Source: Paludisphaera soli (GTDB lineage: Bacteria; Planctomycetota; Planctomycetia; Isosphaerales; Isosphaeraceae). From it: a stretch of DNA of 64,000 nucleotides. A model generated the notes under the pieces. That model was not told where the DNA came from. It did not search any database and was given only the letters and a program-made list of their open reading frames with translations. Below, one piece after another: positions 27,598-39,887 of the stretch. The stretch covers positions 1-64,000 of the forward strand of contig NZ_JAALJI010000028.1 of assembly GCF_011064595.1 (NCBI RefSeq). The letters run 5' to 3'. The first letter of the stretch is position 1. The number at the start of each line of letters is the position of its first letter. Position numbers and translations under genes: made by a program.

Positions 27598-28557
27598 ATG
27601 GACGAACCCGAGCCAAGCCCGACACCCGTGGAGCCCGCCCCTCCACACACACGACGACGCCCCGGACGTCGGCTCCGCCGCGGGGCGGCCGCCGCCGGCC
27701 TGCTCGTCGCGGCCTGGATGGCGATCTCGTTCGCCGTGGCCTACCGGCTCACGAGCCGTCACCATGCGCCGTATCCGGAGCCCCCGCCCCGGGTGTCTTG
27801 GGGGACGATGGAAGGGCTTCGCCTCGTCTCGGTCGACGGCCTGGGGATCGGAGCCTGGTTCGCCGAGGGCCGGGCCGAGGCCCCGTCGGTCCTCTTCCTC
27901 CACGGCAACGGCGGCGATCGCCACCACTGTTTGGAACGGGCCGAGATCCTGGCCTCCGAGCTGGGATGCGCCGCGATGTTCATCACGCTCCGGGCGCACG
28001 GGGACTCCGACGGCGACTTCAACGACATCGGCTACAGCGCCCGGCGCGACGTCGCGGCGGCCGTCGATTTCCTGAGAGGGCGACGCCCTAACCGGCCCGT
28101 GATCGTCTTCGGCGTCTCGCTCGGCTCGGCGGCCGCCGCGTTCGCGGCCGAGGAGCTGGGCGGAAAGGTCGCGGGCTACGTCCTGGAGAGCCCCTACGGC
28201 GACCTGAAGACCGCCGTCTGGAACCGCACGAAGGCCGCGCTGCCGACCCCCCTCGACCGGGTCGCCTACCTGGGCCTCCGCCTCTCCGCGCTCGTCCTGC
28301 TGCCGCAACTGGACGTGATCTCCCCCGTCCGCGCGATCGGGGGCGTCCCCGAGGACGTGCCCGTCCTGATCCTCGCGGGGGGCTCAGACGACCTCGCGAC
28401 GGCGGCCGAGGCGCGGGCCATCTTCGATCGGGTCCGCACTCACGGGACGCTGGAAGTCTTCCCCAAGGCGAGGCACAACGACCTCGCCTCGGTTGAACCC
28501 GACCGCTACCGGCGGATCATCCTGGACTTCATCGCGGGCGTCACGGCGCCCCGGTGA
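27598..28557 (+). CDS. membrane-anchored alpha/beta hydrolase
   Basis: A 319-residue serine hydrolase of the alpha/beta fold. An N-terminal membrane span lies at about 28-50 ([22 protein letters not shown]). [12 protein letters not shown] gives the oxyanion-hole [14 protein letters not shown] the nucleophile elbow (GxSxG), AGGSDDLAT the acid and KARHNDL the histidine, so the triad looks complete. The BAAT/dienelactone-like layout fits the FrsA/YqkD-type hydrolases. The substrate is unknown. It is divergent from the MoxR gene, with 95 bases between starts. Confidence 0.87.
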
Positions 28558-29726: not shown

Positions 29727-30539
29727 ATGAGTGGCACGCAAGCCGCGTCGGACGCCTCCAAGCAGAAGTTCGACAACAACGGCCAGTACAGCCGGACCTC
29801 GATCCTCCGTTACGAGAAGATCTTCGGCGACAACTACATCAGCACCGGCGGCGCGGAGACGACCGACAACCTGACCTCGCGGCTCGTCGGCTTCCTCAAG
29901 CCGGGCGTCCGGGTCATCGACGTCGGCAGCGGCATCGGCGGCGCGGCGTTCCACCTGGTCGAGAAGTACGGGGCGCAGGTGGTCGGCATCGACCTGGCCG
30001 AGGAGATGGTCGCCATCGGCCACGACCGCGCCAAGGCGGCCGGGATGTCCGACAAGGTCGAGTTCATCCTCGGCGACGTGCTCGAGACCGACTTCCCCGA
30101 GAAGTTCGACCTGGTCTGGAGCCGCGACGCCTTCATGCACATCCCGGACAAGGCCCGGCTGTTCGCCAAGCTGTACAGCCTGCTCGCCCCCGGCGGCAAG
30201 ATCATCATCACCGACTACGCCCGCGGCAAGACCCCCGGCTCCCCTGAGTTCGAGGAATACATCAAGAAGACCGGCTACAGCGTCATCGAGCCGGAGCAGT
30301 ACGGCAAGGTCCTGGAAGCGGCCGGCTTCACCGACGTCGTGGTCGACGACGCCACGGCCACCTTCATCGACATCCTCCAGCGCGAGGAAGGCCGGCTCGT
30401 GAACGAGCGCCAGCACTTCCTGGCCCACTTCTCCGAGGAAGACCTCAACTACCTCGTCGACCGCTGGAATATGAAGATCGGCTTCTGCCAGGCCGGCGAC
30501 ATGAAGTGGGGCATCTACGTCGGCACCCGCCCCGCCTGA
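29727..30539 (+). CDS. phosphoethanolamine N-methyltransferase homologue (PMT type)
   Basis: A 270-residue SAM-dependent methyltransferase. ENNQY-like NNGQYSRTSILRYE, then FGDNYISTGG (33-42), are the signature of the eukaryotic-type phosphoethanolamine methyltransferases of Plasmodium, nematodes and plants. SAM motif I is DVGSGIGG (65-72), and SRDAFMH (132-138) corresponds to the catalytic SRDAxLH segment. ITDYARG and a C-terminal KWGIYVGTRP complete the match. PMT makes phosphocholine by three methylations. ATG 29727 is chosen since the extension to 29637 has no homology. It is first in a collinear set with an amine permease and phosphatidylcholine synthase. A glycine-type methyltransferase is a less likely alternative. 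Confidence 0.85.
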   Translation: MSGTQAASDASKQKFDNNGQYSRTSILRYEKIFGDNYISTGGAETTDNLTSRLVGFLKPGVRVIDVGSGIGGAAFHLVEKYGAQVVGIDLAEEMVAIGHDRAKAAGMSDKVEFILGDVLETDFPEKFDLVWSRDAFMHIPDKARLFAKLYSLLAPGGKIIITDYARGKTPGSPEFEEYIKKTGYSVIEPEQYGKVLEAAGFTDVVVDDATATFIDILQREEGRLVNERQHFLAHFSEEDLNYLVDRWNMKIGFCQAGDMKWGIYVGTRPA

Positions 30540-30559
30540 CCCGACATCCCGAAGCGGCC

Positions 30560-30590
30560 CCGGCCCGTCCCGAGAGATGAGACGAGCCGG
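30560..30590 (+). terminator. candidate attenuating hairpin between PMT and permease genes
   Basis: Ten-base arms (30560-30569 and 30581-30590) pair with one mismatch around an 11-base loop, in the 98-base gap after the methyltransferase stop. There is no T-run, so it may reduce rather than stop read-through. Confidence 0.35.
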
Positions 30591-30637
30591 GGGATTCATG
30601 CACGCGCAAGTCATCGTTATGGGGAGGCGAAGGCCGC

Positions 30638-32263
30638 ATGCCGGGTAGCGCGAGCGACGACGTCCGTGACCTGGCCGGTTTCGGGTACAAGCAGGAGCTG
30701 GACCGCTCGCTGGGGAGCTTCTCCTCGTTCGCGGCCGGCTTCTCGTACATCTCGATCCTGACCGGCGTCTTCCAGATGTTCTATCTGGGATACGCCTCCG
30801 GCGGCCCGGCGTTCTTCTGGACGTGGCCGATGGTCTTCCTGGGCCAGTTCCTGGTGGCCCTCTGCTTCGCCGAAGTGGCCTCCGCCTACCCGCTCTCGGG
30901 GGGGGTGTACCAGTGGTCCAAGAAGGTCGGCACGCCGCTGGGCGGCTGGCTGACCGGCTGGATCTACCTCGCCTGCTCGATCCTCTCGCTGGCGGCCGTG
31001 GCGCTGGCGCTCCAGAACACGATGCCGCAGATTTCGGCGTGGTTCCAGGTGGTCGGGGACGGCTCGAATCCCGTGGACCAGGCCAAGAACGCCGTGCTGC
31101 TGGGCTGCACGCTGATCGCCCTGACAACGATCATCAACGCCGTGGGCGTCCGCCTGATGGCGGTCGTCAACAACGTGGGGGTGTGCGCCGAACTGGCCGG
31201 GGTGATCCTGCTGATCGTCCTGCTGGGCCTGAACGCGACCCGAGGGCCGGCGATCCTCCTGGAGACCCAGGGCCGGGGCGAGGGCCAGCCCGGCGGCTAC
31301 TTCGCGGCCTTCCTGGCGGCGGCGGTGATGGCGTCGTACGTCCTCTACGGCTTCGACACGGCCGGGACCCTGGCCGAGGAGACCTCCGACCCCCGCCGAC
31401 GCGCCCCCCGGGCCATCCTCCGGGCGCTCGCCGCGGCCGGGATCGCGGGGGGCCTGCTGATCCTCGTCGGCCTGCTGGCGATGCCGAACCCCGCCGACCC
31501 GGCGATGGGCCAGGTCTCGGGCGGCCTGCCGATGGTGGTGAAGTCGGTCCTGGGGCCGAAGGTCGGGACGGTCTTCCTGATCGAGGTGGTCTTCGCGGTG
31601 GCCGTCTGCGCCCTGGCGGTGCACGCCGGGACGGTGCGCCTGATCTTCGCCATGGCCCGCGACAACAGCCTGCCGTTCGCCGAGTCGCTGGCCCGGGTGA
31701 CCGGCGAGACCCGCACGCCGATCGCGCCGGCGATCGTGACCGGGCTGCTGGCCTCGGCGATCCTCCTGGTCAACGTCAACGCGCCGAGGATCATCGAGCG
31801 GCTCTGCTCGGTGGCCCTGGTCTGGGCGAACCTCGCCTACCTGATGGTCACCCTGCCGATGCTCCTGGGCCGCCTCCGCGATCGCCGCCGTCGCGTCGAG
31901 GACGACGCGGGACTGGAGGATGAGGCGGACGAGGCCGGGCCGATCCCGACTCGCGAGCGGTTCAGCCTGGGGCGTTGGGGCCTGCCCGTGAACGCCGCGG
32001 CGTCGGCCTGGGGCCTGTTCGTGATCGTCAACATGGGCTGGCCCCGGCCCGAGATCTACGGGGACGACCCCGTCGGCCGCTACACCGCCCTGCTGGCGAC
32101 CCTCGCGCTGACGGCCGTGGGCGCGACCTATTACCTGGCGGTCGGCCGGCTCCGCGCCGGGGTCCTCCCCGAGCACGCGGCCCACGTCGAGGCCCCGTCG
32201 GTCGGGCTCGGCTTCGACGACCCGTCGATGATCGACCTGCTCGCGCCCGGCGAGTCGTCCTGA
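30638..32263 (+). CDS. APC superfamily permease, amino acid/choline transporter branch
   Basis: A 541-residue permease with about twelve hydrophobic spans. GGGGAGG stands before the ATG at 30638. The opening LAGFGYKQELDRSLGSFSSFAAGFSYISI and the AEVASAYPLSGGVYQWSKK segment are typical of the amino acid/choline transporter branch that includes yeast Hnm1 (choline) and Uga4 (GABA). A later GFDTAGTLAEETSDPRRRAPRAI is the conserved helix-6 region. An acidic hydrophilic insert precedes the last spans. Its position between PMT and phosphatidylcholine synthase, 20 bases from the latter, suggests choline or ethanolamine import, but the specificity is inferred from context. Confidence 0.87.
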   Translation: MPGSASDDVRDLAGFGYKQELDRSLGSFSSFAAGFSYISILTGVFQMFYLGYASGGPAFFWTWPMVFLGQFLVALCFAEVASAYPLSGGVYQWSKKVGTPLGGWLTGWIYLACSILSLAAVALALQNTMPQISAWFQVVGDGSNPVDQAKNAVLLGCTLIALTTIINAVGVRLMAVVNNVGVCAELAGVILLIVLLGLNATRGPAILLETQGRGEGQPGGYFAAFLAAAVMASYVLYGFDTAGTLAEETSDPRRRAPRAILRALAAAGIAGGLLILVGLLAMPNPADPAMGQVSGGLPMVVKSVLGPKVGTVFLIEVVFAVAVCALAVHAGTVRLIFAMARDNSLPFAESLARVTGETRTPIAPAIVTGLLASAILLVNVNAPRIIERLCSVALVWANLAYLMVTLPMLLGRLRDRRRRVEDDAGLEDEADEAGPIPTRERFSLGRWGLPVNAAASAWGLFVIVNMGWPRPEIYGDDPVGRYTALLATLALTAVGATYYLAVGRLRAGVLPEHAAHVEAPSVGLGFDDPSMIDLLAPGESS

Positions 32264-32283
32264 AGAACCGAGGAACGCCCGCG

Positions 32284-33099
32284 ATGGTGGAAACCCTGGC
32301 CTCTCCCGCCCCCCCCGCCGCCCACGCCGGCGCGCCGAGCCCGCTCCGTCGCTTCCTCGGCTGGTGCGTCCACGCCTTCACGGCCTCGGGGATCGCGATC
32401 GCCGCGGTGATCCTGGCGCTCCTGGTCCGGGGGGGTCCGGACGCCTTCCGCTGGTCGTTCCTGCTGATGCTCGTCGCCACCCTGGTCGACGCGGTCGACG
32501 GGACCTTCGCCCGCGCGGTGCGGATCAAGGAGGCCGTCCCCAGCTTCGACGGCCGGCGGCTGGACGACATCACCGACTTCCTGACCTACACCTGCCTGCC
32601 GCTCATGCTCGTCTGGCGCGCGGGGCTCGTCCCGGCGGGATACGAGGCCTGGCTGATCGCGCCGCTGCTGGCCAGCGCCTACGGCTTCTGCCAGGTCGAC
32701 ATCAAAACCCACGACGGCTACTTCCTGGGCTTCCCGTCGCTCTGGAACATCGTCGCGCTCTACCTCTACGTCCTGCCCATACCTCCCTGGCCGGCGCTCT
32801 CCATCCTGCTGGTGCTGGCGTTCCTGACGTTCGTCCCGGTGAAGCACCTGTATCCGTCGCAGCCGGGACGGCTGAATCGCTTCGCGACGATCACCGGGGT
32901 CTTCTGGGGCATCCTGGTCGTCTGGCTCGTCTGGGTCCTGCCCACGTCGTCGAACCCGGAGTTCACGGACTCAACCCGGACCCTGGCCTACGTCACGCTG
33001 ATCTACCCGGCGTTCTACATGGGGACGTCGTGGTATCTCACTCTCCGGGGGTGGCTGGGACCGCGGCCGGAGTCGGCGACGCCGGCGACCCCTCGCTGA
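32284..33099 (+). CDS. pcs: phosphatidylcholine synthase (CDP-alcohol phosphotransferase)
   Basis: A 271-residue membrane enzyme that joins choline to CDP-diacylglycerol. GAGGAA lies eight bases before the ATG. HAFTASGIAIAA (30-41) matches the Pcs N terminus. The CDP-alcohol phosphotransferase motif reads D69-A-V-D72-G-T-F-A-R77, then after the long spacer typical of Pcs, G90-x3-D94-x3-D98. KTHDGYFLGFPSLWN near 140-155 is characteristic of Pcs rather than PgsA or PssA. About seven further hydrophobic spans follow. It overlaps the converging MFS gene by 62 bases. It completes a choline-lipid set with the two genes upstream. Confidence 0.92.
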   Translation: MVETLASPAPPAAHAGAPSPLRRFLGWCVHAFTASGIAIAAVILALLVRGGPDAFRWSFLLMLVATLVDAVDGTFARAVRIKEAVPSFDGRRLDDITDFLTYTCLPLMLVWRAGLVPAGYEAWLIAPLLASAYGFCQVDIKTHDGYFLGFPSLWNIVALYLYVLPIPPWPALSILLVLAFLTFVPVKHLYPSQPGRLNRFATITGVFWGILVVWLVWVLPTSSNPEFTDSTRTLAYVTLIYPAFYMGTSWYLTLRGWLGPRPESATPATPR

Positions 33100-34456
33100 G
33101 GTCCCACTCCCTGGCCTGACGCTGGCCCTCCTCGACGTCGACCAGCATCAGCAGCAGGCCGCCGACGAGGAAGAAGCCGATCACGCCCAGGATCGCGCCC
33201 CGGCTCGATCCCGTCGCGACGTTGATGATCGCGAACATGGCCGGGCCGAAGATCCCCGCGAACTTCTCCACGACGGCGAAGAAGCCGAAGAACTCGCCCG
33301 ACTTGGACCTGGGGATCAGGCTGGCGAACAGCGACCGCGAGAGCGCCTGCGTCCCCCCCTGCACCACGCCGACCAGCACCGCCAGGATCAGGAAGTCGCG
33401 ATTGGTCTTCATGGAGTAGCCGACCAGGCAGATCAGGGTGTAGACCCCCAGCCCCAGCAGGATCGACCGCTTGACGCCGAGCACCCCGGCCAGCGACCCG
33501 AACAGGAACGAGCACGGGATCCCCACGAACTGCACCAGCAGGATCGACGCGATCATCACCGTCGAGTCGATCCTCAGCTCGGTGCCGTAGATCGTCGCCA
33601 TCCGGATGATCGTGCCGATGCCGTCGTTGTAGATGAGGAAGGCCAGGAGCATCAGGAAGCCCTGTCGGCATCGCCTCAGCTCCCGGCCGGTCTCGCCGAG
33701 CCGGCCGAAGGCGGCCCGCACCGGGCTCATCCCGGCCCAGCGTTCGCCGCCGGAGACGGGCGGCTCGGGGACGCGGCGGAACAGCGGGATCGAGAAGACC
33801 AGCCACCAGACGGCCACCGACACGAAGGCGAGCCGCGCCGGGAGCGTCGCCTGCGACTCGCTCAGCCCCGGCCCCGAGGGGAGCCCGAACCAGGCCGGGA
33901 ACTGGATCCAGGCCAGGTTGAGAGCCAGCAGCAGGCCGCCGCCGACGTAGCCCAGGGCGTAGCCCGCCGTCGAGACCCGGTCGATCTCGTCGTCGGAGGC
34001 GATGTGGGGCAGCAGCGCGTCGTAGAAGACGAAGCTGGCGTTGGCCCCGATGTTCGCCAGGATGAAGAGGGCCGAGGCCAGGATCCAGTCGCCGGTGTGG
34101 ATGAAGAACATGGAGGCGGTCGAGGCCAGGCCCAGCGACAGGAACCACCCCAGCAACCGCTTCTTGCTCGCGGTGTGGTCGGCGTACGCACCCAGGATCG
34201 GCGACATCAAGGCGACGATCACCATGCCGAACGTCGTCGCCATCGCATAGCGACCCGAGGCGACCTTGGGGTCGAGCCCGGCGCAGGCGACCTCGGAATA
34301 GTAGATCGGGAAGACGGCCGTGATGATGGTGCAGACCATGGCCGAGTTGGCCCAGTCGTACAACGCCCAGGCCCGCAACTCGGGTCGGTCCAGGCCGAGC
34401 CGGCGCAGCAGGCCGACGCCGCCCCCCGCGCGGGCCGCACGATGTTCCTCGGCCAT
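33038..34456 (-). CDS. MFS transporter of the UMF1 type
   Basis: A 472-residue transporter. LRAWALYDWANSAM near residue 28 is the hallmark of the UMF1/Atg22-like branch of the major facilitator superfamily. About twelve hydrophobic spans follow, with GAYADHTASKKRLLGWF as the loop 2-3 motif and NDGIGTIIRMATIYG opening the second half. GGGGAGG precedes the start. The substrate is unknown; related proteins export amino acids or unknown solutes. Its 3' end overlaps that of pcs by 62 bases on opposite strands, so the two transcripts are antisense there. Confidence 0.9.
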   Translation of the reverse strand: MAEEHRAARAGGGVGLLRRLGLDRPELRAWALYDWANSAMVCTIITAVFPIYYSEVACAGLDPKVASGRYAMATTFGMVIVALMSPILGAYADHTASKKRLLGWFLSLGLASTASMFFIHTGDWILASALFILANIGANASFVFYDALLPHIASDDEIDRVSTAGYALGYVGGGLLLALNLAWIQFPAWFGLPSGPGLSESQATLPARLAFVSVAVWWLVFSIPLFRRVPEPPVSGGERWAGMSPVRAAFGRLGETGRELRRCRQGFLMLLAFLIYNDGIGTIIRMATIYGTELRIDSTVMIASILLVQFVGIPCSFLFGSLAGVLGVKRSILLGLGVYTLICLVGYSMKTNRDFLILAVLVGVVQGGTQALSRSLFASLIPRSKSGEFFGFFAVVEKFAGIFGPAMFAIINVATGSSRGAILGVIGFFLVGGLLLMLVDVEEGQRQAREWDLSEGSPASPTPAAVPATPGE

Positions 34457-34925: not shown

Positions 34926-36596
34926 ATGACACGACGTATCCCCCTCGGTTTGACGTCGCGCAAGACCTTGTCCCTGGGCGGGGTGATCCTCGCGGTCGCC
35001 GTCGGCCTGGCCGCGTGGAAGTACATGGGCGCCGCACCGACCTCCGAGGCGAACCTCGACCACGCCGAGGCCGCGACGAAGCCGGCCGCCGCGACGCAGC
35101 CCGACGCGGAAGTCGGCCGCGATCGGATCGTCCGGATCAGCGCCGATCAGCAGAAGCTGATCGGCGTGGAGGTCGAAACCGTGAAGCTCGAGCCCGAGAC
35201 CATCCTGGTCCGGGTGCCGGGGCGGATCGCGCCGGACGAGAACCGCTTCGCGTTCATCACGCCGAGGGCGCCGGGCATCGTGCGGAGCGTCGCGGTGCGG
35301 ATCGGCCAGGACGTGAAGGCCGGCGACGTGCTGGCGACCATCGAGAGCGCGGCCGTCGGCCAGGCCCGGCTCGACCTCCTGATGAACCTGCAGTCGCTCG
35401 ACATCGCGCTGACGCAGGCCCGCTGGCAGGAGACGATCCTCAAGAACACCCTGGAGTTGATCGAGCGGCTCAAGGCCGAGGACACGCCCGAGCAGATCAA
35501 CGCCAGGTTCCTCGACAAGCCGGTGGGGACCAACCGCGAGCGCCTGATGACGGCCTACACGGCCCACCGCCTCGCCAAGGCCAACCTCAGCCGCAAGAAC
35601 GCCCTGTACGACGAGGAGATCATCCGGGGCCAGCTGATGGAGGAGAGCAAGGCCCGGTTCGACGCCGACCTCGCCGCCTACCAGACCCTGCTGGACCAGA
35701 TGGGCTACGAGACGAACCTGGCGAACACCCGCGCCCAGCAGGCGCTCCGCCAGGCGGAGACCTCCGTCCTCGTCGCCCGCGAGAAGCTCCAGGTCCTGGG
35801 CGTCGACCCCGACGACGACGAATACATCCCCAAGACGCTCCGCCAGCAGAACGCCCTGACGGCCGACGTGCCGGCCGTGAAGACCCCCGGCCCCGCCGAC
35901 CCGGCCGGCGACAAGTCGTCGATCCTGGGGGTCGCCGAGGCGATGTCGCTGGGGACCCGCCCGGCCACCGGCGCCGAGCCCAAGCCGCTCCCCGAGGAGC
36001 CGGCCAGCCTCTACAAGCTCAAGGCCCCGTTCGCCGGCACGATCCTCGACCGCGAGCTGGTCGTGCCGGGCGTGGCCGTCGACGTCACCCACCGGATCTT
36101 CACGCTGGCGAACCTGGAGAACGTCTGGGTTGAGGCCAACATCAACCCCAGCAATCTCCCCTACATCCACGACGACGCGAACGTGTCGATCACGTTCAGC
36201 TCCGACGCCTACCCCGAGAAGCAGTTCCAGGCGCGGCTGCTCTACACCGGCGACCTGGTCGTCGAGAAGACACAGACCCTCACCCTGCTGGCCCGGGCCG
36301 AGAACGCGGACCGGTTCCTCAAGCCGGGGATGTACATCGACGTCGCCCTGGCGGTCAAGTCGACCGAACAGATGCCGTCGGTGCCCAGCTCCGCGCTGCT
36401 GTCCGACGACGAGCGCTGGGTGGCCTTCGTGCGGACCGGGCCCGAGGAGTTCGAGATGCGCGAGGTCAAGACCCGGGGCCCCGGCGAGGACCGGACGGCC
36501 GTCTTCTCCGGCCTGCGGCCGGGCGAGGAGGTCGTCACCCGCGGAGCCTTCAAGCTCAAGTCGGAGTGGATCCGCCTGGCCTCCTCCGACTCCTGA
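34926..36596 (+). CDS. RND efflux periplasmic adaptor subunit (CusB/CzcB-like)
   Basis: A 556-residue membrane fusion protein. GAGGA precedes the ATG. A signal anchor (KTLSLGGVILAVAVGLAAW) is followed by a barrel-sandwich segment (VRVPGRIAPDENRFAFITPRAPG, IGQDVKAGDVLATI), a long helical hairpin (about 140-300), the second lipoyl half (LKAPFAGTILDREL), beta-barrel (NLENVWVEANI) and a C-terminal domain (PSSALLSDDERWVAFV). The helical region has an unusually long insert (about 280-355) rich in acidic and proline residues. It connects the downstream CusA-like pump to an outer-membrane factor that is not encoded in this cluster. Confidence 0.92.
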   Translation: MTRRIPLGLTSRKTLSLGGVILAVAVGLAAWKYMGAAPTSEANLDHAEAATKPAAATQPDAEVGRDRIVRISADQQKLIGVEVETVKLEPETILVRVPGRIAPDENRFAFITPRAPGIVRSVAVRIGQDVKAGDVLATIESAAVGQARLDLLMNLQSLDIALTQARWQETILKNTLELIERLKAEDTPEQINARFLDKPVGTNRERLMTAYTAHRLAKANLSRKNALYDEEIIRGQLMEESKARFDADLAAYQTLLDQMGYETNLANTRAQQALRQAETSVLVAREKLQVLGVDPDDDEYIPKTLRQQNALTADVPAVKTPGPADPAGDKSSILGVAEAMSLGTRPATGAEPKPLPEEPASLYKLKAPFAGTILDRELVVPGVAVDVTHRIFTLANLENVWVEANINPSNLPYIHDDANVSITFSSDAYPEKQFQARLLYTGDLVVEKTQTLTLLARAENADRFLKPGMYIDVALAVKSTEQMPSVPSSALLSDDERWVAFVRTGPEEFEMREVKTRGPGEDRTAVFSGLRPGEEVVTRGAFKLKSEWIRLASSDS

Positions 36597-36689
36597 CCCG
36601 TCGTCTCAAGGCGTCCGAGCGAGCGGACCTCGGCGGGGCGCGTGCCCACCGAGGTCCACGCCTCCCCCCAACCCCCGCCGAACCGACCC

Positions 36690-39600
36690 ATGTTCGACCG
36701 CCTCATCGATTGGGCGTTGCGCAGCCGCCCCATGGTCCTGCTGCTCCTCGTCGGCCTGGTGCTGTGGGGGGTGCGGTCGCTCGTCAAGCTGCCGATCGAC
36801 GCCCAGCCCGACATCACCAACGTCCAGGTGCTGGCCCTCACCAGCTCGCCGGGGCTGGGGCCCGTCGAGGTCGAACAGTTCATCACGATCCCGGTCGAGA
36901 ACGCGATGAACGGGATCCCCAAGATCCAGGAGGTCCGCTCGTTCTCGCAGTTCGGCCTCTCGGGCGTGACGATCGTGTTCGAGGAGGGGTCCGACATCTA
37001 CTGGGCCCGACAGCAGGTGGGCGAGCGCCTGGCGGAGGTCCGATCGTCGATCCCTCCGGAGTTCGGCCAGCCCGAAATGGGGCCGATCTCGACCGGCCTC
37101 GGCGAGATCTTCCAGTTCGAGGTGAAGAATGCGCCGGACGCGTCGCGTCCGCGGTCGCTGATGGAGCTGCGGACGATCCTGGATTGGGAGGTCGCCCGGC
37201 CGCTGAAGAGCGTCCCCGGCGTCGTCGAGGTCAACGCCTTCGGCGGCGAGCTGAAGACCTATGAAGTCCGGCTCGACCCGGAGCGGCTGATGGCCCGCAA
37301 CATCTCGGTCAACCGGGTCTTCGAGGCCATCCGCGAGAACAACAGCAACGCCGGCGGCGGCTACCTCGAACGTCTGGGCGAGCAGCGCGTCATCCGCGCC
37401 GTCGGCCTGGTGAGCACCCTCGACGACCTCGCCGACATCGTCCTCGCCACCACGCCGACCGGCACGCCGGTGTACATCCGAGACGTCGCCGACGTCCGCT
37501 TCGCCCCCCTCATTCGGAACGGGGCGGTGACCCGAGACGGCGAGGGGGAGATCGTGACCGCGACCGCCATGATGCTGGCGGGCGAGAATTCCCGGGCCGT
37601 CGTCGACCGGATCAAGGCCAAGCTGGACGAGATCCGGCCCCGGCTCCCCGAAGGGGTCGTGGTCGAGCCCTTCTACGACCGCGCCGTGCTCATCAGCCGG
37701 ACCATCACCACGGTCGCCTCGAACCTGGCCGAAGGCGGCATCCTCGTGGTCGCGGTCCTGCTGGCGATGCTCGGCAACCTGAAGGCGGGCCTGGTCGTCG
37801 CCCTGGCCATCCCGCTGTCGATGCTCTTCGCCATCAACATGATGGTCTACTACGGCATCGCCGGCAGCCTCATGAGCCTGGGGGCGATCGACTTCGGCCT
37901 CATCGTCGACAGCTCGGTCATCATGATGGAGAACTGCGTGAGCCACCTGGCCCACGCCGACAAGCGGCGGTCGGCCGTCGACGTGGTGCGGGAGGCGGCC
38001 TTCGAGGTCCGCAAGCCGGTCGTGTTCGGCGTGGCCATCATCACCATCGTCCACCTGCCGCTACTGGCCCTGGAAGGGGTCGAGGGGAAGATGTTCCGGC
38101 CGATGGCCCTGACGGTCGTCTTCGCCCTGATCGGCTCGCTGATCCTCAGCCTGACGGCCACCCCCGTCCTCGCCTCGCTGATCCTCAAGCCCGGCACCTC
38201 GGAAGTCGAGACCCTGCCGGTCCGGATCGGCAAGCGGATCTACCGGCCGTTCCTGAAGTTCTCGCTCGACCACCCGGTGACCGTCGTCGCCGTCTCGCTC
38301 GCGGCCTTCCTCGCGACCATGCCGGTGGCGATGAGTTTGGGCGGCGAGTTCATCCCCCGTCTCGACGAGGGGGACGTCCTCATCGTCGTCACCCGCCCCC
38401 CCAGCGCCTCGCTCTCCGAGAGCCTCGAGGACTCGACGCGGATCGAGAAGGCCCTCCTCGCCGCCCTCCCCGAGCACATCGACTCGATCGTCTGCCGGAC
38501 CGGCCGCCCGGAGATCGGCATCGACCCGGCCGGCGTCAACCAGACCGACGTCTTCGTTTACCTGAAGAAGCCGAAGGAGACCTACGTCGACCTGGCCCTC
38601 AAGCCGATCCACCCGCTCATCGCCCTGTTCGACGGCGGGGATCACGGGCCGTCCAAGGCGGACCTGATCGTGGAGATGGAGAAGATCTGCCGCCGCGAGC
38701 TGCCCGGCGCGTTCTTCAACTTCGGCCAGCCGATCGAGGTCCGCTTCAACGAGATGCTCGCCGGCGTCCGCGCCGACCTGGGCATCGGCCTCTACGGCGA
38801 CGACCTGGACGTCCTCCAGGAGAAGGTCAACGCGATCGCCGCCGCCGTCGAGGACATCCCCGGCGCGGCCGACGTCCGGGCCCAGGTGCTCGGCGGCCTG
38901 CCGTTCCTCCGGGTCCAGATCAACCGCGACGACATCGCCCGCTACGGCATCAACGCCTCGTCGATCCTCGACGTCGTCTCGGCGCTGGGGGGCAGGGTCG
39001 TCGGCCAGGTCATCGAGGGCCAGCGCACCTTCGACCTCCAGGTACGCTTCGACCCCACCGCACGCGACGACATCGATTCGATCAAGCGGCTCAAGATCGC
39101 CGACGTCAACGGACGGATGATCCCCCTCTCGGAGCTGGCCGATTTCCACCAGGAAGACGGTGCCTATGAGATCTGGCGGAAGGACCGCCAGCGCCGGGCC
39201 ATGGTGCAGGCCAACGTCCGCAACCGGGACCTGGCGACGTTCGTCGCCGAGGCCCAGCAGCGGGTCCTCGCCGAGGTCGACATCCCCCGCGGCTACTTCC
39301 TGGAATGGGGCGGGACGTTCCAGAACATGCAGTCGGCCACCCAGCGGCTGACGATCGTCGTGCCGGTGGCCCTCGTGCTGATCTTCCTGCTGCTCTACGG
39401 CACGTTCCAGTCGGTCAAGCTCGGCACCCTGATCTTCCTCTCGGTCCCGCTCGGGGCGATGGGGGGCATCCTGGCGCTCTGGCTGCGGGACATGAACCTG
39501 AGCATCTCGGCGGGGGTCGGCTTCATCGCCCTCTCGGGGGTCGCCGTGCTCGACGGCCTGGTCATCGTCTCGGCGATCCGCCAGCGGGTCGAGAGCGGCG

Positions 39601-39887
39601 AGCCGATGCGGCAGGCGGTTGCGGGGGCCTCGATGAGCCGGCTCCGTCCGGTGCTGATGACCGCCCTCGTGGCCAGCCTCGGCTTCATCCCGATGGCCTT
39701 CTCCACCGGCTCGGGCGCCGACGTCCAGCGCCCCCTCGCCACGGTCGTGATCGGCGGCCTGATCACCAGCACCGGCCTGAAGCTCCTGGTGATCCCCGCC
39801 ACCTACGCCTGGTTCGATCCGGGCCGCGGCCAGCGGGCCTCCGACGTCGACTCGCTCCTCGAGCCCGACGACGATCTCGAAAGCTGA
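36690..39887 (+). CDS. CusA/CzcA-family heavy-metal RND efflux pump
   Basis: A 1065-residue inner-membrane proton-driven pump. ATG 36690 is preferred (MFDRLIDWALRSRPM); GTG 36642 would add 16 unconserved residues. The KLPIDAQPDITNVQV segment, the GAIDFGLIVDSSVIMMEN helix 4 with its proton-relay aspartates, and NPxGxN-like repeats of periplasmic domains identify the HME branch that exports Cu/Ag or Zn/Co/Cd. The second half repeats the fold (LSVPLGAMGGILALWL, GFIALSGVAVLDGLVIVSAI). Metal specificity cannot be set by eye. It forms an operon with the adaptor 93 bases upstream; no TolC-like gene follows. Confidence 0.94.
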   Translation: MFDRLIDWALRSRPMVLLLLVGLVLWGVRSLVKLPIDAQPDITNVQVLALTSSPGLGPVEVEQFITIPVENAMNGIPKIQEVRSFSQFGLSGVTIVFEEGSDIYWARQQVGERLAEVRSSIPPEFGQPEMGPISTGLGEIFQFEVKNAPDASRPRSLMELRTILDWEVARPLKSVPGVVEVNAFGGELKTYEVRLDPERLMARNISVNRVFEAIRENNSNAGGGYLERLGEQRVIRAVGLVSTLDDLADIVLATTPTGTPVYIRDVADVRFAPLIRNGAVTRDGEGEIVTATAMMLAGENSRAVVDRIKAKLDEIRPRLPEGVVVEPFYDRAVLISRTITTVASNLAEGGILVVAVLLAMLGNLKAGLVVALAIPLSMLFAINMMVYYGIAGSLMSLGAIDFGLIVDSSVIMMENCVSHLAHADKRRSAVDVVREAAFEVRKPVVFGVAIITIVHLPLLALEGVEGKMFRPMALTVVFALIGSLILSLTATPVLASLILKPGTSEVETLPVRIGKRIYRPFLKFSLDHPVTVVAVSLAAFLATMPVAMSLGGEFIPRLDEGDVLIVVTRPPSASLSESLEDSTRIEKALLAALPEHIDSIVCRTGRPEIGIDPAGVNQTDVFVYLKKPKETYVDLALKPIHPLIALFDGGDHGPSKADLIVEMEKICRRELPGAFFNFGQPIEVRFNEMLAGVRADLGIGLYGDDLDVLQEKVNAIAAAVEDIPGAADVRAQVLGGLPFLRVQINRDDIARYGINASSILDVVSALGGRVVGQVIEGQRTFDLQVRFDPTARDDIDSIKRLKIADVNGRMIPLSELADFHQEDGAYEIWRKDRQRRAMVQANVRNRDLATFVAEAQQRVLAEVDIPRGYFLEWGGTFQNMQSATQRLTIVVPVALVLIFLLLYGTFQSVKLGTLIFLSVPLGAMGGILALWLRDMNLSISAGVGFIALSGVAVLDGLVIVSAIRQRVESGEPMRQAVAGASMSRLRPVLMTALVASLGFIPMAFSTGSGADVQRPLATVVIGGLITSTGLKLLVIPATYAWFDPGRGQRASDVDSLLEPDDDLES

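Follow-up and report, generated by a model that had tools for sequence, protein, structure and literature searches.

In plants, choline is synthesised by a phosphoethanolamine N-methyltransferase (PMT) together with a phosphocholine phosphatase. Phosphatidylcholine synthase (Pcs) requires free choline, as stated in excerpts of two reports (PMC10434233, PMC11409717), and an excerpt of a third (PMC12493201) gives trimethylornithine lipid (TMOL), phosphatidylcholine (PC), phosphatidylglycerol (PG) and phosphatidic acid (PA) as the major lipid classes of Singulisphaera acidiphila; for this species it supports the statement, made in an earlier reading of the DNA letters (the sequence-only reading), that Isosphaeraceae contain PC. 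Here, we describe a three-gene block of Paludisphaera soli that encodes a PMT homologue, a permease of the APC superfamily and a Pcs homologue, located in a stretch of 64,000 nucleotides (contig NZ_JAALJI010000028.1), the whole of which is referred to as the window. The gene families are known already; their combination in a bacterium is apparently unreported, as neither a PMT of a bacterium nor the PMT-APC-Pcs combination was found in searches of the open-licence PubMed Central (PMC) literature.

On balance, we favour the view that the block belongs to a PC module in which Pcs can receive choline both by synthesis within the cell and by uptake, the synthesis running in the order ethanolamine, phosphoethanolamine, phosphocholine, choline and PC. 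A kinase of the choline/ethanolamine family would supply phosphoethanolamine in some relatives, the PMT homologue would use S-adenosylmethionine (SAM) to convert phosphoethanolamine, or its methylated forms, to phosphocholine, a postulated phosphatase would release free choline, and Pcs would combine choline with CDP-diacylglycerol to give PC, while the permease would import choline and perhaps ethanolamine. The genes, their families, linkage and co-occurrence, the catalytic residues and the lack of a phosphatidylserine (PS) synthase over cut-off come from computation; what we infer are the substrates, the course of the flux and the release of choline by a phosphatase.

Family, fold and catalytic residues of the methyltransferase homologue

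The three genes are collinear, as the sequence-only reading had it; they are plus-strand open reading frames (ORFs) with intergenic distances of 98 and 20 bp, and the motifs FGDNYISTGG, DVGSGIGG and SRDAFMH that it quoted are found in the translation of the PMT homologue. In a phmmer search, the 11 distinct solved PMT sequences occupied the top of the ranking (4.4e-75 to 7.3e-46), with the Arabidopsis PMT2 chain (C-terminal domain) at 4.4e-75 and the PMTs of known structure from Plasmodium and nematodes ranging from 2.1e-51 to 7.3e-46; the next protein was MitM at 2.1e-22. Sequence identity is 43.0% to the Arabidopsis PMT2 C domain and 38.5-38.7% to two Plasmodium enzymes. An AlphaFold model was obtained from four sequences with a mean pLDDT of 74.4, its N-terminal lid being poor (residues 1-15 and 17-42 below 50). 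In the fold comparison, rows 1-15 were all PMTs with Z scores of 29.2-30.3, followed by a putative sarcosine dimethylglycine methyltransferase of Galdieria at 27.1. With PMTs first by both sequence and fold, the assignment to a eukaryote-type PMT homologue and not to a sarcosine methyltransferase stands. Identity as a sarcosine/dimethylglycine methyltransferase was ruled out by a score of 76.8 bits against a cut-off of 550.

Inspection of the active-site columns of P. falciparum PMT revealed that 13 of 14 are retained in the window protein, the exception being Arg179. The columns of Tyr19, Asp128 and His132, which we take to be catalytic, in line with the structure entries for the mutants Y19F, D128A and H132A, are conserved in all 25 Isosphaeraceae proteins and in 6/6 eukaryotic PMT domains. 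The enzyme thereby keeps the sequence family, the fold and the catalytic residues of PMTs, with a putative activity on phosphoethanolamine.

Distribution of the methyltransferase gene and its linkage to Pcs

We compared the window with 45 Isosphaeraceae genomes (handles G), among them that of P. soli itself (G000; 7.97 Mb, 197 contigs, completeness 99.97), the genus members Paludisphaera borealis and Planctomyces sp. SH-PL62, and S. acidiphila (G037, assigned by two plasmid stretches of 100% identity) from elsewhere in the family. Genes were called in 44 loci (handles L) by a self-trained ORF caller, L007 being a duplicate of L036 and counted once. PMT is present in 25 genomes and 12 of 21 genera (E<=1e-30), and Pcs in 30 genomes at E<=4.0e-82 (33 at 1e-3, three of them weak). 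Every PMT genome has Pcs, compared with 5/20 of those without PMT (G016, G017, G039, G040, G041), which gives a Fisher p of 4.5e-8 by genome and 4.4e-5 by genus (table 12, 0, 1, 8), both uncorrected for kinship. The genes had been expected to be neighbours in related genomes, and indeed in 18/25 genomes PMT is followed by a Pcs gene of the same orientation no more than ~2 kb away, with the APC gene between them in 16; in one genome there is a 4-bp overlap at PMT/APC and again at APC/Pcs. P. borealis has PMT-APC-Pcs and no match to the phosphatidylserine decarboxylase (Psd) family, and S. acidiphila has kinase-PMT and APC-Pcs.

The co-occurrence also bears on the idea that phosphocholine or choline is made for a use other than PC, such as glycine betaine or the decoration of a surface polymer, which we consider highly improbable. 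Choline made by PMT feeds betaine in plants, and relatives of choline dehydrogenase do occur (at most 453.9 bits, in G005; G000 has a 576-aa frame with two partial matches of 251 and 140.7 bits), but none of the 45 genomes exceeds the cut-off of 732.1 for choline dehydrogenase TIGR01810, 19 of them having weaker matches, and the company of Pcs in all PMT genomes speaks for a lipid role, LicC/LicD-type genes not having been searched for.

The APC gene adjoins Pcs in 26 of the 30 Pcs genomes, and in ten of these 26 PMT either lies at another place or is absent; the pair occurs without PMT in G017, G039, G040 and G041, is absent in G005, G011 and G012, and could not be followed in G016, where the locus is cut by a contig end. 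Since the pairing persists even without PMT, APC-Pcs is the core and PMT a frequent addition. In G005 and G011, PMT is followed directly by Pcs with no APC gene in the 14-kb locus, that of G011 being led by the kinase, the rest of these two genomes not having been searched for one. The pairs without PMT would also suit a cell that makes PC from imported choline, with PMT as a side activity that carries out the last methylations only, like nematode PMT-2, or uses a different small amine. The nearest relatives of known structure are in line with this, being the C-terminal domain of the Arabidopsis enzyme and, next after it in the case of the most divergent member, nematode PMT-2. In an excerpt of PMC10269165, nematode PMT2 is reported for the later steps only, but single-domain Plasmodium PMT, in the same excerpt, is reported to perform all three, and the two PMT-Pcs loci without APC argue against a supply by import; we therefore regard this explanation as unlikely. 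PMC10269165 also describes tests of nematode PMTs for rescue of a yeast mutant that lacks PEM1 and PEM2 and needs choline.

The permease was expected to be an APC permease of the branch that includes the yeast choline carrier. Its family is confirmed (PF13520, 152.4 bits), but the branch is weakly supported: TIGR00907, which we take to be that branch, scored 159.8 bits, below its cut-off of 598.3, and the best NCBIfam match, TIGR03428 (permease, urea carboxylase system), scored 490.7 bits, below 740.45. The position of the gene beside Pcs ties it to choline better than these scores, and the permease is a probable importer of choline and/or ethanolamine, its putative substrates.

In the Pcs homologue, the signature DG(x)2AR(x)12G(x)3D(x)3D is present, as it is in 29/30 Isosphaeraceae Pcs proteins in all. 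The 12-residue spacing is taken to be specific to Pcs. G000 encodes three other CDP-alcohol proteins, two with a spacing of 8 (a PgsA-like protein among them) and one with no motif match. In the Pcs of L159:4561-5367 (minus strand), the DG of the motif is replaced by DW, either a real change or a draft-genome error.

Beyond this set, PMT was found in 2 of 392 Planctomycetota genomes (E<=1e-35; six candidates scored per listed genome), both of them Isosphaeraceae. The plasmid search with PMT returned 861 matching records, all below 60% identity (the best of the 25 listed at 32.7%), the phage search returned 18 records, none with 80% coverage, and the search of viral contigs gave no match. An exact-pattern scan of genome contigs, which misses distant relatives, found 3 close planctomycete loci, all in the Isosphaeraceae set (G032, G018, G019). 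In the PMT tree the 25 Isosphaeraceae proteins fall on one side (85/66) and the 6 eukaryotic domains on another (93/88); long branches were flagged, and we take the tree as giving no direction of transfer between the two.

Kinase genes and the supply of phosphatidylethanolamine

In five genomes of four genera (G002, G011, G026, G037, G038), a gene of the choline/ethanolamine kinase family lies directly upstream of PMT, with gaps of 185-305 bp. The kinases of G011, G037 and G038 scored 85.8, 78.7 and 77.3 bits with PF01633 (cut-off 29), those of G026 and G002 are also over, and 17 of the 18 genomes over this cut-off have PMT. Close orthologs (52-57% identity to the kinase of G011) are present in 12 of the 45 genomes, namely 11/25 with PMT and 1/20 of the others; the 14 PMT genomes that lack one comprise six with a weaker paralog only (32-40%) and eight without any match at 1e-8. 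Another choline/ethanolamine-kinase-like protein, a weaker match with 32-40% identity to the kinase beside PMT, is encoded at L160:4700-5638, with matches in G028-G032, G001 and G002 and none in G000.

Neither known type of PS synthase (TIGR00473, NF006946) is over cut-off in any of the 45 genomes, the best scores being 36.0 bits (cut-off 107), obtained for the Pcs gene of G026, and 25.5 bits (cut-off 314). Weak matches at 1e-3 are present in 44/45 genomes for TIGR00473 and in 11/45 for NF006946, and a divergent enzyme below the cut-offs is possible. Because neither model passes, methylation of phosphatidylethanolamine (PE) is predicted to be an unlikely source of PC, PmtA itself not having been searched for. 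Psd-family proteins are found in 13/45 genomes, including 10/25 with PMT, the window's among them; Psd is missing from 15/25 PMT genomes; among the 18 with a completeness of 95% or more, 9 lack it. The Psd-like enzyme may have a substrate other than phosphatidylserine. In S. acidiphila its gene stands at L183 (G037:C1, 5137000-5147000) with genes for a GMC oxidoreductase, a 618-aa protein without a Pfam match and a class-III aminotransferase, and ORFs similar in size and order are found at L182 (G000:C137) and L184.

Taken together, gene linkage, co-occurrence, the upstream kinase in relatives and the lack of a PS synthase over cut-off partly support the proposal of the sequence-only reading that soluble methylation of phosphoethanolamine feeds Pcs.

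Observations that weigh against the proposed route

A number of observations count against the route that we favour, the first of them concerning the lipids. A figure legend of PMC7828035 names PE, monomethyl-PE (MMPE) and dimethyl-PE (DMPE) among the lipids in chromatograms of four planctomycetes including S. acidiphila and S. rosea, the strain being unstated. Methylated PE in S. acidiphila, if present, would fit either a PmtA route or a Pcs that acts on methylated ethanolamines. Together with the Psd-family proteins of ten PMT genomes, this would suit PC formation by PmtA-type methylation of PE, with the block as a minor salvage route. The missing PS synthases, the many PMT genomes without Psd and the grouping of the S. 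acidiphila Psd-family gene with oxidoreductase and aminotransferase genes speak against such a pathway, which we judge very unlikely.

Further points arise from the genes themselves. Pcs is not near PMT in 7/25 genomes (L040, L041, L052, L053, L055, L056, L057). P. soli itself is one of the genomes with no kinase match at 1e-8, and has no PF01633 match at 1e-3. The best NCBIfam model for the kinases is GntI (189.9 and 199.6 bits, cut-off 357), and hence the kinase substrate is not fixed by family. The window Pcs agrees with its earlier assignment in matching five NCBIfam PC-synthase models (PhCholSyn) as well as in its motif, but its scores of 150.6, 136.7, 129.1, 110.6 and 101.9 bits are below the respective cut-offs of 440, 300, 400, 400 and 350; as no curated cut-off is reached, we label it a Pcs homologue.

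The phosphate site of the methyltransferase differs as well. The column of P. falciparum Arg179, which we take to be a phosphate contact, is Thr182 in 25/25 Isosphaeraceae and Arg in 6/6 eukaryotic domains, so that another substrate is possible and the enzyme is labelled a PMT homologue and not a proven PMT. The reverse change is seen at window position 246, with Arg in 25/25 Isosphaeraceae and Gly in 6/6 eukaryotic domains, and the other phosphate ligands, Gln18, Tyr160, Tyr181 and Lys247, are retained in 25/25. Arg246 is four residues from Lys250, presumably the equivalent of P. falciparum Lys247, on one predicted helix, and it is therefore a fair inference from the model that the positive charge of the phosphate site may have moved from Arg179 to Arg246.

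A further point is the phosphatase. The earlier remark that no obvious phosphatase is adjacent was borne out, none being present among the scanned neighbours from the loci of relatives, many neighbours having been left unscanned. The scans comprised sets of ten proteins (three kinases and one window ORF included), ten, and seven (four of them the Psd cluster), and the proteins matched PrmC, disaccharide hydrolase, reverse transcriptase, TIM barrel, CN hydrolase, DHDPS, DUF1559, choloylglycine hydrolase, AAA, RloB, DUF4349, amidohydrolase, M24 or Calx-beta families, or had no match. The PHOSPHO1-type family PF06888, which we take to hold the plant phosphocholine phosphatase, is present in 0/25 PMT genomes and in 5/45 overall, all without PMT. 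Since Pcs needs choline and no phosphatase was found, either the phosphatase is unlinked or the methyltransferase works on free ethanolamine. In the latter case, the PMT homologue would turn free ethanolamine, or its methylated derivatives, directly into choline by methylation, Pcs would be fed without a phosphatase, and the loss of Arg179 would mark the change of substrate. This would also agree with the absence of a close kinase ortholog from 14 of the PMT genomes, but the four retained phosphate ligands, an Arg246 that resembles a moved charge and the kinase genes upstream of PMT in four genera point the other way, and we consider it rather unlikely. There is likewise only a modest chance that Isosphaeraceae make choline de novo with a phosphate site rebuilt by the exchange of Arg179 for Thr and of Gly for Arg246, an enzyme that may accept free ethanolamine, and so have a PC route that depends on neither PE, outside choline nor a phosphatase.

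Gene starts and neighbouring genes

For PMT we take the ATG at 29727 as the start, the ORF listing opening earlier at TTG 29637; the credible start of Pcs is an ATG 20 bp past the APC stop, the listing opening at TTG 31975. The alpha/beta hydrolase gene upstream occupies the same place in 4/5 same-genus relatives, the exception being P. borealis. An Atg22-like MFS gene often adjoins Pcs in relatives, including some that have no PMT or have it at another place (L149, L158, L159, L099). The efflux-like ORFs are syntenic in the genus.

Table 1. Features of the window around the three-gene block.
Feature	Position	Strand	Basis or remark
PMT, single-domain phospho-base N-methyltransferase homologue, 270 aa	29727..30539	+	phmmer, fold, catalytic columns
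Thr182 codon, column of Plasmodium falciparum PMT Arg179	30270..30272	+	Thr 25/25 Isosphaeraceae vs Arg 6/6 eukaryotic domains
Arg246 codon, four residues before Lys250	30462..30464	+	Arg 25/25 Isosphaeraceae vs Gly 6/6 eukaryotic; predicted helix 237-255
APC-superfamily permease, 541 aa, probable choline (and/or ethanolamine) importer	30638..32263	+	PF13520, TIGR03428, Pcs adjacency
Pcs, phosphatidylcholine synthase homologue, 271 aa	32284..33099	+	five PhCholSyn models, DG..AR(12)G...D...D signature
Alpha/beta hydrolase	27598..28557	+	upstream of PMT
Atg22-like MFS protein	33038..34456	-	convergent with Pcs
Two long ORFs resembling a membrane-fusion protein and an RND-type efflux pump	34926..39887	+	by sequence look

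Implications and comparison with known systems

If the favoured route is correct, the PMT-Pcs module would add to the routes to PC and account for its rank among the major lipids of a planctomycete without a PS synthase over cut-off, and soil and peat bacteria of one family may make their own choline rather than depend on their surroundings. A clade of bacterial PMTs in which the phosphate site is altered also offers a natural experiment on substrate choice in a drug-target enzyme family. As a gene-deficient mutant of S. acidiphila (OlsH) is described in the excerpt of PMC12493201, the PMT-Pcs idea is directly testable in that species.

The LicA/LicC routes through CDP-choline share with these loci a kinase of the choline/ethanolamine family, present in some relatives, and differ in that no cytidylyltransferase was seen among the scanned neighbours, LicC not having been searched for genome-wide. 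Choline synthesis in plants resembles the proposed route in its soluble phospho-base methylation followed by dephosphorylation, the difference being that PF06888 was not found in the PMT genomes. The PmtA route likewise leads by SAM-dependent methylation to a trimethylammonium head group; PmtA methylates the lipid, whereas here a soluble phospho-base would be methylated, in genomes with PS synthases not over cut-off. The Pcs pathway of Brucella and Rhizobium has the same combination of a Pcs homologue and a linked transporter gene, but there the choline is external, entering Brucella through ChoXWV according to an excerpt of PMC8371380, whereas Isosphaeraceae seem to encode an internal source of choline. 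The eukaryotic PMTs of Plasmodium, nematodes and plants have the same fold (Z ~30) and the Tyr/Asp/His columns in common with the bacterial clade, which differs from them in having Thr for Arg179 and Arg246 for Gly throughout. In nematodes, the product of PMT enters the Kennedy pathway, as the excerpt of PMC10269165 describes, whereas the bacterial gene instead adjoins Pcs.

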